From the NCBI GenBank assembly GCA_937896495.1, contig CALBNQ010000143.1:1-16480 (forward strand): 16,480 nt of DNA, in the 5' to 3' direction. Source of the DNA: an uncultured archaeon (GTDB lineage: Archaea > Thermoproteota > Nitrososphaeria > Nitrososphaerales > Nitrosopumilaceae). A program made the position numbers and the translations under genes. The notes beneath the pieces were generated by a model. That model made no database searches. It was not told the DNA's origin and was given only the letters and a program-made list of their open reading frames with translations. Position 1 is the first letter of the stretch; each line of letters starts with the position of its first letter. Positions 5,730 through 15,643 of the stretch are shown here, piece by piece.

Positions 5730-6263
5730 TTATTCACTAATCTTTAAAATTATTTCATCTAATTCAGATTCAACCATAGTGATAATGGGAGGAATGAAAC
5801 CAGAAGTGGCATTTTGTTCAGGCCAATGAATTTGATTGGTTCTACCATTAAGTGTAATTTTGACATTTGATTTTTGATAATCAGTTACATTTTCTAAAAT
5901 TGTAAATGATTCAGAAGGAATTGCTATAAAACCAGTTTCTTTGATTAAAGCTTTGATTTTATTTAATGTCTTTTCATCTAATTTTGATCTTATATCAGGT
6001 TGGAGATATCCCTTGTCAGTAAGAGAATATTTTGTATCACCATTATTTTTTATTAGTAAAATCTCAGTTTTTTGTGATCCCGTTCTTTCAGTTACACCAT
6101 AAGAAATTTTCTTTAATTGATGTTTTGTATATTCAATTTCAATTTTATCTATAGAATTTGCTGCAGATATTGGAATTTCATTTTTTGTAATTAAGGGGAT
6201 TGAAATCAATAGTGCTATAATTACAGGAATCGCTCCCATAACCAAGTAAATCGGTTTTACCAT
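5730..6263 (-). CDS. Unknown protein with one N-terminal membrane segment
   Basis: 177 residues, family not recognised. Residues 4-25 (PIYLVMGAIPVIIALLISIPLI) form a single hydrophobic helix just after a lysine, so the protein is probably anchored with most of its chain outside the cell. There is no lipobox cysteine. The remainder is a soluble domain of alternating beta segments (YGVTERTG, TEILLIKNNGDTKYSLT, NVKITLNGRTNQIHWP) and a late acidic helix. The start ATG at 6263 has a TATA-like AATATAC (6288-6296) at leaderless distance. It lies 30 bp upstream of pdxS and may be co-transcribed, but nothing in the sequence ties it to PLP synthesis. Confidence 0.75.
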   Translation of the reverse strand: MVKPIYLVMGAIPVIIALLISIPLITKNEIPISAANSIDKIEIEYTKHQLKKISYGVTERTGSQKTEILLIKNNGDTKYSLTDKGYLQPDIRSKLDEKTLNKIKALIKETGFIAIPSESFTILENVTDYQKSNVKITLNGRTNQIHWPEQNATSGFIPPIITMVESELDEIILKISE

Positions 6264-6327: not shown

Positions 6328-6382
6328 TTCAAGTCTATTTTATTCCTGTTTGTGGGGTCGTAGCCTAGCCTGGTAGGGCGAC

Positions 6383-6409
6383 AGTGTCTACGAAAAAGAT
6401 CACCGCTAA
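6383..6409 (+). other. tRNA-Trp intron 1 (27 nt, in anticodon stem, position 28/29)
   Basis: The insert splits the 5' anticodon strand between C28 and G29; this boundary is unique because neither neighbour allows the exon to shift. It folds as a bulge-helix-bulge: intron stem GTG/CAC (6384-6386/6401-6403), bulge AC^A (6381-6383), four-pair helix GGCG/CGCT (6377-6380/6404-6407), bulge AA^G (6408-6410), each cut after the second bulge base. This is the substrate shape of archaeal tRNA splicing endonuclease at a non-canonical site. Confidence 0.82.
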
Positions 6410-6418
6410 GGGCTCCAA

Positions 6419-6471
6419 AGGTTAACTAAGCTAAACTGACTCACGGATGATGTAAGTTTGGAGCTGTAGTG
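6419..6471 (+). other. tRNA-Trp intron 2 (53 nt, canonical 37/38) with box C/D-like motifs
   Basis: The insert follows A37 and ends before A38. The 3' bulge TG^A (6470-6472) abuts CCC of the anticodon stem; the 5' bulge AA^A (6417-6419) and helix CTCC/GTAG (one C-U mismatch) complete an imperfect BHB. Inside are CTGA (6436-6439, box D'), a 7-nt spacer, ATGATGT (6447-6453, box C'), then TTTGGAGC (6457-6464), complementary to the host anticodon loop, and CTGT (6464-6467), a weak box D. Archaeal tRNA-Trp introns in other lineages are known to serve as box C/D methylation guides; the same role here is inference. Confidence 0.78.
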
Positions 6472-6576
6472 ACCCGTAGGTCGCCGGTTCAATTCCGGTC
6501 GGCCCCACGTTAAAATTTTAGAATTTTCAAAACATAAATTTGAAATTTTTTGATAGATTGGGTATAATGAAAAATT

Positions 6577-8859
6577 TTATTTATTTCTTAAAACATTCAG
6601 TGCAGAACCAAACTTGAACCAATCAATTTGAGATTTATTGTATGAATGATTCAATAAAATTTCTTCTTTATTTCCAGAATTATGTGAAATAATACATTTG
6701 ACTTGTTTTTGTGGCTCTAATTCATTTAGATTAATGAGACTGATTTTATCGTCTTCAAGAATTTTATCATAATCATCAGGATTACTAAAAGTCAATGCCA
6801 GTACCCCTTGTTTTTTCAAATTTGTTTCATGAATTCTTGCTAAACTTTTTGTTATCACTGCAGCACATCCCAAAAATCTTGGAGTCATAGCAGCATGTTC
6901 TCTACTACTGCCTTCACCGTAATTATTGTCGCCTATTATTACCCATCTCATTTGTTTTTCTTTATACTGTCTGGCAATTTTTGAAAAAGATTCAATCTGA
7001 TTGTTTAAAGTATTTTTACCTTGACCGACTTTATCACTAAATGCATTTACTGCACCCAAAAGCATGTTATCACTTAGATTATCCAAATGTCCTCGAAGTG
7101 ATAACCATGCACCTGCAGGAGAAATATGATCAGTAGTACATTTTCCCTTAGCTTTTACCATAATTGGTAATTCTTCAAAATCTTGTCCATTCCATTTTGA
7201 AAAAGGTTCTAAACGTTGCAATCTTTTACTGTCAGATTTTATCATAACTTCAATACTATCAGAATTTTCAGGCGGTTCAACAAAAATTCCTTCAGGTCTC
7301 ATAAATCCTTCTTCGGGGACTTCTGGAGCAGATTTAGGTGGTTCTAATTTGAATTTTGTTCCATCTGATGCAGTCAATTCATCTTTTAATGGATTAAAAG
7401 ATAGTCTACCACCCAAAGACAATGCAATGATCATTTCCGGACTTCCAATGAAATTAAGAGTGGTTCTTTGACCATCATTTCGTCCAGGAAAATTTCTGTT
7501 AAACGTTGTAACAATAGAATTTTTTTTATTTTTTTCTAGCTCAGGTCTATTCCATTGTCCAATACATGGACCACATGCATTTGCCAAAACTGTTGCACCG
7601 ATATCAATTAAAGAATTCATTTGTCCATCTCGTTCAATTGTTCCACGAATTTGTTCAGAACCAGGAGTTACTAAAAGGGGAATTTTTGATTTTATTCCTT
7701 TTGCTTTAGCTTGTTCAGCCAAACTTGCAGCTCTTGACATATCCTCATAAGAAGAATTAGTACAACTGCCAATTAATGCTACAGAAATTGGATCTGCATA
7801 GTCATTAGATGTAACATCATTAGATAACTGTGAAATGGTTCTTGCCAAATCAGGAGTGTGAGGACCAACAATATGAGGTTCTAATGTAGAAAGATTGATT
7901 TCAATTACTTTATCAAAGAATTTTTCAGGATTGTTTTCTACTTCAGGATCTGCAACAAGAGATTCTCTATTTTGATTTGCAAGTTCAGCAATTTCACTTC
8001 TATTTGTGTATTTGAGATATGTTTCCATTCTTTCATCATATGGAAAAATTGAACAAGTTGCACCAACTTCTGCACCCATATTTGCAATGGTAGCTTTACC
8101 AGTACAACTAATAGATTTTGTTCCAGGACCAAAGTATTCAACAATTGAATTAGTTCCACCAGAAACAGTTAGTTCATCTGCAACTTTTAAAATAATATCT
8201 TTAGGAGCTGTCCATCCACTAAGTTCTCCGACAAGTTTGATTCCTATTTTTTTAGGATACAATAATTCCCAAGGCATACCTGCCATAGTTTCTGCTGCAT
8301 CTAATCCACCCACACCCACAGCAATCATTCCAAGACCACCAGCATTAGGAGTATGAGAATCAGTTCCAATCATTAATCCTCCTGGAAAAGCATAATTTTC
8401 TAAAACAACTTGATGAATAATTCCAGCACCAGGTTTCCAAAAACCACATCCATATTTTGCAGAAGCTGATTGTAAGAATTGAAATACTTCACTATTTTCA
8501 TCTAGAGAAATTTTCATATCGACATCACCTTGTACTTCAGCTCTAATGAGATGATCACAATGAACAGAAGTTGGTAAAGATGTTTGTTTCAAACCAGCCT
8601 GCATAAATTGTAACATAACCATTTGTCCAGTAACATCTTGTAATGCAACTCTGTCTGGTTTAAGAAAGACATAATCTTTCCCACCAGTAAAATTTTTCTC
8701 ATCAAGTTTATGCAAATGTCCTGATAAAATTTTCTCAGTTAATGTTAAAGGTCTACCAGTTGTGCTTCTAAATTTTATAATATTTTCTTTTAATTTCAAA
8801 TAAACATCAGAAACCAGTTTAGCAGTTGTGTCAGTGTTCACAAAGTGATGACTGATCAT
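6577..8859 (-). CDS. Aconitate hydratase, mitochondrial/AcnA-like [4Fe-4S] type
   Basis: 760 residues. Interconverts citrate and isocitrate through cis-aconitate in the TCA cycle, in the cytoplasm. Three [4Fe-4S] cysteines are visible: Cys366 in GSCTNSSYED and Cys429 and Cys432 in NACGPCIGQW, the same 63- and 3-residue spacing as in mitochondrial aconitase. Substrate-site blocks include LIGTDSHTPNAGG (printed with M as first residue: GGLMIGTDSHTPN), TFNRNFPGRNDG, and the swivel-domain GDNNYGEGSSREHAAM. Domain order 1-2-3 then swivel is complete. The ATG at 8859 is preceded by AT-rich sequence with a T6AAT stretch about 25 bp upstream. The gene is monocistronic: the tRNA lies downstream on the other strand and a divergent gene lies upstream. 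Confidence 0.95.
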   Translation of the reverse strand: MISHHFVNTDTTAKLVSDVYLKLKENIIKFRSTTGRPLTLTEKILSGHLHKLDEKNFTGGKDYVFLKPDRVALQDVTGQMVMLQFMQAGLKQTSLPTSVHCDHLIRAEVQGDVDMKISLDENSEVFQFLQSASAKYGCGFWKPGAGIIHQVVLENYAFPGGLMIGTDSHTPNAGGLGMIAVGVGGLDAAETMAGMPWELLYPKKIGIKLVGELSGWTAPKDIILKVADELTVSGGTNSIVEYFGPGTKSISCTGKATIANMGAEVGATCSIFPYDERMETYLKYTNRSEIAELANQNRESLVADPEVENNPEKFFDKVIEINLSTLEPHIVGPHTPDLARTISQLSNDVTSNDYADPISVALIGSCTNSSYEDMSRAASLAEQAKAKGIKSKIPLLVTPGSEQIRGTIERDGQMNSLIDIGATVLANACGPCIGQWNRPELEKNKKNSIVTTFNRNFPGRNDGQRTTLNFIGSPEMIIALSLGGRLSFNPLKDELTASDGTKFKLEPPKSAPEVPEEGFMRPEGIFVEPPENSDSIEVMIKSDSKRLQRLEPFSKWNGQDFEELPIMVKAKGKCTTDHISPAGAWLSLRGHLDNLSDNMLLGAVNAFSDKVGQGKNTLNNQIESFSKIARQYKEKQMRWVIIGDNNYGEGSSREHAAMTPRFLGCAAVITKSLARIHETNLKKQGVLALTFSNPDDYDKILEDDKISLINLNELEPQKQVKCIISHNSGNKEEILLNHSYNKSQIDWFKFGSALNVLRNK

Positions 8860-14530: not shown

Positions 14531-15643
14531 ATGTCAGCTGATGATTTTGTTGTAACTCCTTGGCATGTTGAAGGAGATATTGACTATGATAAATTAATCA
14601 AAAAATTTGGAACAGAAAAAATTTCCCCAGAACTATTAGAGAGAATGAAAAAAATTACAAACGAAGATCACTTTATGCTTAGAAGAGGTATTTTTTTCTC
14701 ACATAGAGAAATGAATAGAATTCTAGATGAATATGAAAAAGGGAACAAATTCTTTTTGTATACAGGTAGAGGTCCTTCTGGACATACACATATTGGTCAT
14801 TTAGTACCGTGGATTTTTGCAAAATGGTTACAAGAAAAATTTGATGTTAACATGTATTTTCAATTAACAGACGATGAAAAATTTTATTCAAAACCTAATC
14901 TCACTTTGGAAGAAACAGGAAAGTATGCATATGAAAATGCATTGGACTTTATTGCATTAGGATTCAAACCTGAGAAGACAAAAATAATAATTAACACAAA
15001 AAATATTCAAACTCTTTATCCAATTGCAGCCAAAGTAGCAAAAAAAATTAATTTTTCAAATACAAAAGCAACATTTGGATTTACAAATGAAACAAATCTG
15101 GGAATGATTTTTTATACATCATTACAATCTGCTCCATGTTTCATCGAAGATAAACCAGTTTTAATTCCACTAGGAGTTGATCAAGATCCACATTTCAGAC
15201 TTACCAGAGATATTGCCCCAAAGATAGGTAAGCCAAAACCTGCACTAATTCATAACATAATGATTCCAGGATTAGAAGGACCAGGAGGTAAAATGTCAGC
15301 ATCAAATGAAAGCAGTACGATTTACACAACAGATACTGCAAATGTAGTAAAAAAGAAAATTAACAAGTATGCATTTTCAGGTGGACAAACTAGTGTGGAA
15401 GAGCATAGAAAACTTGGAGGAAATCCAGACATCGATGTATCATATCAATATCTAAGAATATTTTTTGAACAAGATGACAATAAATTAAAAACAATTTACG
15501 AAGAATACAAATCTGGAAAACTACTTTCAGGAGAACTAAAAGCAATCTTGATTGAAAAAATTAATGATTTTCTAGCAATACATCAAGAAAAAAGAGAAAA
15601 AGCAAAAGACCAAATTGATAAATTTCTTTTTGAGAATAAATGA
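14531..15643 (+). CDS. trpS: Tryptophanyl-tRNA synthetase (class I, archaeal/eukaryotic type)
   Basis: 370 residues. Charges tRNA-Trp, which is encoded in the same window. Class I motifs: THIGHLVPW with HIGH at 87-90, and GGKMSAS with KMSAS at 254-258. The N-terminal extension (1-70, with FFSHREMNRILD) and YTGRGPSGHTHIGH are typical of the archaeal/eukaryotic branch rather than bacterial TrpRS. LGVDQDPHFRLTRDIA is the tryptophan-site block. The ATG at 14531 sits about 25 bp from the shared TATA box. Its stop overlaps the next gene's ATG (ATGA, 15640-15643). Confidence 0.96.
   Translation: MSADDFVVTPWHVEGDIDYDKLIKKFGTEKISPELLERMKKITNEDHFMLRRGIFFSHREMNRILDEYEKGNKFFLYTGRGPSGHTHIGHLVPWIFAKWLQEKFDVNMYFQLTDDEKFYSKPNLTLEETGKYAYENALDFIALGFKPEKTKIIINTKNIQTLYPIAAKVAKKINFSNTKATFGFTNETNLGMIFYTSLQSAPCFIEDKPVLIPLGVDQDPHFRLTRDIAPKIGKPKPALIHNIMIPGLEGPGGKMSASNESSTIYTTDTANVVKKKINKYAFSGGQTSVEEHRKLGGNPDIDVSYQYLRIFFEQDDNKLKTIYEEYKSGKLLSGELKAILIEKINDFLAIHQEKREKAKDQIDKFLFENK

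Follow-up and report, generated by a model that had tools for sequence, protein, structure and literature searches.

The second intron of a tRNA-Trp gene in the DNA analysed here (the window, 16,480 nucleotides from an uncultured marine, ammonia-oxidising archaeon of the Nitrosopumilaceae) is probably a box C/D type guide carried in its tRNA precursor, which would place C34 for 2'-O-methylation, a companion guide to nucleotide 39 having decayed. The sequence features that make this intron a candidate guide are real and were confirmed by direct reading. In the mechanism that we propose, the motifs CTGA and ATGATGT would fold into a kink-turn bound by L7Ae, and the antisense element that follows box C' would pair with the anticodon loop of tRNA-Trp such that C34 is set for methylation by fibrillarin. 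Once spliced out, the probably circular intron would most likely work in trans on the spliced tRNA, with which it appears to have gained, in this family, a ninth pair (to C39) that is missing from the precursor. The intron would thereby represent the Nitrosopumilaceae form of an archaeal dual guide directed at nucleotides 34 and 39.

The host gene (6354..6507; plus strand, as are all elements of the gene given below) encodes a tRNA-Trp with anticodon CCA and is split by two introns. Its cloverleaf was folded by hand with 21 pairs checked, and pairing holds, counting GU, in each of the acceptor, D, anticodon and T stems. ARAGORN reported nothing on the window and thus missed the gene, and Rfam gave no match in the window at the gathering score, presumably because of the two introns. 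The ends of both introns were placed by the cloverleaf: intron 1 would lie between nucleotides 28 and 29 (6383..6409), and the 53-nt guide-bearing intron 2, for which the 37/38 rule was used as well, would occupy 6419..6471, the same place in tRNA-Trp as guides of the sR50 type. Exon 2 (nucleotides 29-37; 6410..6418) was read directly, with the anticodon at 6415-6417 and C34 at 6415; exon 3 (nucleotides 38-73; 6472..6507) follows from direct reading and the cloverleaf. In an alignment (A1) of 17 distinct two-intron tRNA-Trp sequences from the window's genus, a single column of nine varied in exon 2 (A37 or G37) and one of 36 in exon 3, compared with 14 of 28 in intron 1. The middle of intron 1 varies and its 3' end, TCACCGCTAA, is invariant in the 17 genes; at one locus (L032) this intron is down to about 16 nt, and more distant genes with a single intron (L115-L121, for example) lack it. 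Elsewhere in the window, a tryptophan--tRNA ligase gene (14531-15643; NCBIfam NF008927) lies 8 kb from the tRNA-Trp gene, and a 177-aa ORF on the minus strand (5730-6263), which adjoins the tRNA gene and has a hydrophobic N-terminus by eye, found no match in NCBIfam.

Within intron 2, box D' (CTGA, 6436..6439) and box C' (ATGATGT, 6447..6453) face each other across the 7-nt loop CTCACGG (6440..6446), the putative stem I of a kink-turn, which at the sequence level is the arrangement of a box C/D kink-turn. Antisense 2, GTTTGGAGC (6456..6464), follows box C' at a fixed distance from its target and, with 9 nt, has the length of a box C/D guide (about 8-12 nt). It matches exactly the reverse complement of GCTCCAAAC, the stretch formed in the spliced tRNA by G31-A37 (6412-6418) and A38-C39 (6472-6473), with G6461 opposite C34. 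The box pair with its 7-nt spacer, the complementarity of the intron to its own tRNA and a ninth pair between G6456 and C39 that forms only after splicing had all been described in an earlier, sequence-only reading of this DNA, and each was recovered here; in the precursor, the base that follows A6419 is G6420. In the 17 genes, none of the 20 columns comprising the two boxes and GTTTGGAGC varied (0/4, 0/7 and 0/9, respectively), as against seven of nine loop columns and 11 of 18 in the 5' part of the intron. Conservation of boxes and guide in relatives, which that reading had named as a check on itself, is thus borne out, with most of the remaining intron drifting. Its central proposal of a box C/D type guide aimed at the host tRNA gains support from boxes and antisense that are kept also in other families of the class and phylum.

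Counts across this wider set refer to introns that fit the box pattern, namely 87 distinct introns, 39 from the family and 48 from outside it; 25 further distinct ones from titled contigs were kept apart. Among the underlying loci (L001-L331), 52 of 331 were unparsed, for the most part loci that are cut or hold intronless or other tRNAs; L119, L125, L297, L303, L305, L307, L308, L310, L311, L312, L314, L315 and L326 were unparsed as well, those from L297 to L326 amounting to 11 of the 40 loci of one fetched set. Every one of the 39 parsed family introns reads ATGATGT at box C' and CTGA at box D', where the parser also accepted other letters. In 75 of the 87 introns, the two end nucleotides of the D'-C' loop are able to pair, counting GU, compared with 33.7 expected from shuffled loops, a test that shared descent inflates; this loop-end pairing supports CTGA and ATGATGT as a putative kink-turn.

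Which nucleotide the guide would address can be read from its spacing. The partner of C34 is the eighth nucleotide after box C' in 83 of 87 distinct introns and the ninth in the other four, and the remaining spacings vary widely across the same introns (loop, 3-20 nt; tail to the splice site, 5-21 nt; 5' part, 6-32 nt). A C'-D interval of 12 nt together with the N+5 rule puts the partner of the methylated nucleotide 8 nt after box C'. The register measured from box C' therefore favours C34 over A36 as the likely target. The sequence-only reading had taken CTGT (6464..6467) for a weak box D pointing to A36. The N+5 arithmetic of that proposal stands (T6459 is opposite A36), and both box and target fall: the spot reads CTGT in 28 of the 39 family introns, CTGC in nine and otherwise TTGC or CAGC, with other letters outside the family. 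CTGT as a box D with target A36 is thus rejected in view of its conservation and of the C'-to-C34 register. A box D for C34 would need to begin at 6466, where the window reads GTAG. No CTGA occurs at the place demanded by the C34 register in any of the 87 introns; three of its four letters are found there in seven, which is about chance level, and a CTGA anywhere between guide and nucleotide 39 in one (L114). Complementarity and register thus fit an sR50-type guide to C34, and the box D that would fix this nucleotide is missing.

Box C is likewise absent from the linear 5' part of the intron, where the best matches across the 87 introns were no better than in shuffled sequences. At the junction of a circularised intron (GTGAGGT in the window), at least five of seven box C letters are present in 50 of the 87, a count that has no chance control. 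We may thus speculate that a box C lies across the circular splice junction and that CTGA and ATGATGT constitute the actual C/D motif in an RNA that is circular and permuted, with a degenerate motif at that junction. Since a second C/D pair is missing from intron 2 (box C/D RNAs have two motifs each), we leave full membership of the archaeal box C/D class unclaimed and suggest that the intron works like a C/D guide.

The place expected for box D is taken by letters of the splicing motif, which brings in the most serious alternative, namely that the 3' half of intron 2 is kept only as an exon-intron helix and hairpin for the splicing endonuclease, its likeness to a guide being incidental. GTAG and TGA (6466..6472, the intron 3' end plus A38) are the probable 3' strand of that motif, read from the sequence and partly by inference: they would pair with exon CUCC in a 4-nt helix, mismatched only at C34, and a 3-nt bulge would follow. 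This intron end is invariant in the genus, where all 17 genes share the tail TGTAGTG; relatives read GGAG, GCAG or GGGG by eye near the GTAG spot. Intron 1 keeps its 3' end as well, and in silico the hairpin fold is preferred, with a calculated energy of -16.4 kcal/mol for the intron hairpin versus -12.7 kcal/mol for guide pairing in cis. The missing box D, the lack of a box C near the 5' end, this energetic preference for the hairpin and a local fold that does not outdo shuffled sequences (z -0.67; for the entire gene the fold is somewhat stronger, z -2.23) all speak against a guide, and because the box D place coincides with the splicing tail and no box C is seen, we slightly lowered our confidence in the guide and slightly raised it in splicing structure alone. 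However, a splicing structure would predict neither a CTGA and RTGATG pair around a variable loop, nor the distance of 8 nt between box C' and the partner of C34, nor an antisense to nucleotide 39 that tracks the exon outside the family. Moreover, the tail is what varies among lineages, and boxes and antisense are what is kept. We consider it unlikely that splicing structure alone accounts for the intron.

That exon-tracking antisense lies 5' of CTGA. Antisense 1 (6424..6435 in the window) is an orphan in the family and aims at nucleotide 39 in most other parsed lineages: it forms at least five of six pairs with nucleotides 38-43 (N+5 = nucleotide 39) in 35 of the 48 introns outside the family and in none of the 39 inside. 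When the register was slid, in an earlier and cruder grouping, the nucleotide-39 register scored 4.78 of 6, with at most 2.57 in nine others. For the 48 non-family introns, Watson-Crick pairing of antisense 1 with the intron's own exon averaged 4.46 of 6, compared with a mean of 4.12 after exons were reshuffled among introns; none of 5,000 reshufflings reached 4.46, and 1,607 of 5,000 reached the value observed within the family, in a test that relatedness inflates. Among 47 introns tabulated, exon position 41 and its partner in antisense 1 form C-G in 35 and T-A in five, and are unmatched in seven. An sR50-type guide to nucleotide 39 is therefore absent from the family, antisense 1 being ruled out for that role by its 0/39. 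On these comparisons, a putative dual guide to nucleotides 34 and 39 is reduced to a single one in the Nitrosopumilaceae, where the nucleotide-39 guide has decayed.

An orphan antisense next to an invariant CTGA might also mean that the intron is a true box C/D RNA whose job in the Nitrosopumilaceae is to serve another RNA through antisense 1, with antisense 2 as a relic. In the window's genome, the only perfect site of antisense 1 is the element itself; six further sites with one mismatch compare with 40 for a reversed control pattern, and the six loci gave no Rfam match; on this basis we reject a role for antisense 1 in guiding another RNA of the genome. The antisense 1 region is itself variable (in the 11 of 18 columns noted above), and antisense 2, invariant in the genus, does not look like a relic. 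We regard a different client RNA as very improbable.

How readily such an arrangement arises by accident was gauged with 200,000 shuffles of intron 2, letters shuffled singly. A CTGA-(3-12)-RTGATG pair occurred in 346 shuffled introns, and a word complementary to the anticodon arm in 1,551 (8 nt) or 325 (9 nt); not one of the 200,000 had the box pair with an 8-nt word of this kind on its 3' side. A functionless chance resemblance, to which the absent box D and the blank ARAGORN and Rfam results at the locus would lend themselves, is thereby hardly credible, given also the conservation across families.

Returning to the guide to C34, the ninth pair bears on where it would act. Opposite nucleotide 39, antisense 2 carries a G in 38 of the 39 distinct introns from the family versus six of 48 others, and in the family the precursor offers G or A opposite this guide G, with C offered by the spliced tRNA alone. 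The splicing-dependent pair first pointed out for the window thus recurs in nearly all parsed introns of the family. Because the pair with C39 is absent in the precursor, action in trans on the spliced tRNA is favoured; pairing inside the intron hairpin can be a competing reason for the kept G. The calculated energy of the trans duplex is -16.2 kcal/mol, the cost of opening the tRNA excluded. The window's genome encodes fibrillarin (E 3.2e-90), Nop (2.9e-69) and two L7Ae genes (6.3e-26 and 7.5e-13), i.e. all gene families of the machinery, and we predict that L7Ae, Nop5 and fibrillarin assemble on intron 2 into an RNP that methylates its target.

In euryarchaea, the intron of pre-tRNA-Trp (Pyrococcus sR50, H. 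volcanii) carries boxes C, D, C' and D'. Self-guiding tRNA-Trp introns are thus already known in other archaea, and the present one appears to be a slimmed-down member with one guide and no visible box D. It shares with its euryarchaeal counterparts the same tRNA, in all likelihood the same canonical place, an antisense to the anticodon loop and the likely target C34; a second antisense that aims at nucleotide 39 is shared outside the Nitrosopumilaceae only. It differs from them in lacking a box D after antisense 2, in having lost the nucleotide-39 guide within the family, in an antisense 2 that reaches as far as C39 and can pair there only after splicing, and in the presence of a second intron.

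According to the published excerpts cited in this paragraph, the H. volcanii tRNA-Trp intron guides Cm34 and Um39 (PMC7994747, PMC4090602, PMC11408192), and the nucleotide-39 antisense found outside the family agrees with methylations at 34 and 39 as reported for it; that intron is 103 nt long (PMC7714728), compared with 53 nt in the window. The guide is placed in H. volcanii and other Euryarchaeota by one of these excerpts (PMC11408192), and a box C/D RNA nested in the tRNA-Trp intron is given for archaea in general by another (PMC4090602). Cm34 was detected in tRNA-Trp of S. acidocaldarius, and the predictions for P. furiosus tRNA-Trp (C32, C34 and C39) were not all detected (PMC7668247), a point against the guide reading. 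Circular tRNA-Trp introns are described from all reanalysed RNase R data sets (PMC12558985); they are reported as abundant in T. kodakarensis, and one is reported for the Sulfolobales. Like the intron studied here, archaeal C/D box sRNAs that stand alone and act on tRNA wobble positions (those of tRNA-Leu and tRNA-Met, in a Pyrobaculum set) direct one antisense at the tRNA, the other being targetless in that excerpt (PMC7994747), but they have their own genes outside introns. Among titles and abstract beginnings of open-licence PMC articles, we found no guide in a Nitrosopumilus tRNA-Trp intron, and we do not claim its absence in print. Candidate relatives such as L309 and L328, which we infer to be of the Sulfolobales, share the layout of the intron and an antisense 1 at nucleotide 39, but differ in having degenerate boxes D' (CCGA and TCGA) and C' (ATGAGG and ATGAAG).

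Two covariance models were used to follow gene and intron through further genomes. The model of the whole tRNA-Trp gene (R1) matched in 197 of 200 class genomes, a figure that is no intron count, as matches include intronless tRNA-Trp and other tRNAs (L130-L133, for instance, are tRNA-Pro-like by anticodon). For the intron region, model R2 (E no higher than 0.01, under filters apt to lose weak matches) found matches in 151 of 299 phylum genomes. Among the 52 family genomes listed, 40 matched R2 and 12 did not, and no match was obtained in four genomes of family f3 (G108, G110, G115 and G125). The candidate guide, with its exon-tracking antisense, is thereby extended to those 40 family genomes and to many others of the phylum, which suggests that the tRNA-Trp intron guide is an old archaeal device that underwent two lineage-specific reductions, loss of the nucleotide-39 guide and loss of the intron.

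The latter reduction is seen in the window's own genus. BLAST found tRNA-Trp gene matches in 56 of 60 genus genomes, of which 32 carry the two-intron gene (loci L001-L032, a contig end truncating L031). Intronless tRNA-Trp is present in 22 of the 60 (18 in L033-L050 and four more of the same sample), and six genomes, 54-86% complete, had no assignable tRNA-Trp gene. The intronless 74-nt gene is found (E up to 1e-15) in 25 of the 136 family genomes with a completeness of 90% or more; the window's genus accounts for 23 and genus g9 for two. At L033-L050, L134 and L141-L149, intronless tRNA-Trp occupies the same genomic place as the two-intron gene; at the loci inspected it lies 3' of an AAAATTC-like stretch and 5' of the gene end that neighbours the intron-bearing gene as well. 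Many bases of the acceptor, the anticodon stem and the T arm differ between the two genes, and for this reason the intronless form looks more like a substituted gene than like a copy that has shed its introns. For a possible origin of the intronless gene in family f3, BLAST gave tRNA-like matches that were weak (best E 2.1e-7, 79% over 57 nt), and a scan of the matched f3 loci yielded no tRNA-Trp candidate.

At its sensitivity, R2 detected no copy of the intron elsewhere in 11 intronless genomes (G048, G098, G035, G030, G006, G101, G051, G102, G005, G045 and G097). A stand-alone guide pattern, TGATG-(1-9)-TTGGAG-NN-CTGA, had one match each in four of the 60 genus genomes; in the intronless one among these (G036), the letters next to the box differ from what its tRNA would need. 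At that stringency we read the four matches as chance and reject a stand-alone guide of this form as the replacement of the intron. The intronless gene is a natural knock-out of the putative intron guide, and that relatives live without the intron counts against a guide reading, as does the dispensability of the H. volcanii intron stated in an excerpt of PMC4090602. Close ammonia oxidisers with and without the intron thus offer a ready natural experiment on why archaea keep an intron that proves dispensable in the laboratory.

A broader scenario, which we put forward tentatively and hold to be possible rather than probable, is that the wobble guide of the Thermoproteota operates with one kink-turn and no box D, measuring C34 from box C' and perhaps using a second motif that only the circular intron would form, over its splice junction; that the Nitrosopumilaceae would have cut it to a single C34 guide that needs the spliced tRNA; and that roughly one in three Nitrosopumilus genomes in the sample (the 22 of 60) would have dropped the guide by way of the intronless tRNA-Trp.

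The exact pattern of boxes and antisense retrieved 110 stretches from the genome_contigs collection. Of these, 106 fit the tRNA-Trp intron pattern, three are cut by an edge (L160, L173 and L174) and the last, on a contig titled Woesearchaeota (L247), is followed by a tRNA 3' half and has no 5' exon. Titles among the matches include Nitrosopumilus, Nitrosarchaeum, Nitrosopelagicus, Cenarchaeum, Nitrosocaldus, Nitrosothermus, Methylarchaceae archaeon and one Helarchaeota archaeon. Three contigs titled Deltaproteobacteria, Chitinophagaceae and SAR324 (L164, L209 and L217, respectively) carry an archaeal tRNA-Trp gene and are probably misbinned contigs in public MAGs. The Helarchaeota-titled contig (L244, ~7180-7249, minus strand) contains a tRNA-Trp intron with CTGA, ATGATGT and an anticodon-loop antisense, and may point to the presence of such introns among Asgard archaea. 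In other tRNA-Trp genes, further insertions were noticed by eye in the D-arm region (L122, L126, L127 and L128) and between the anticodon stem and T arm (L294, L301, L302 and L304), possibly representing additional introns.
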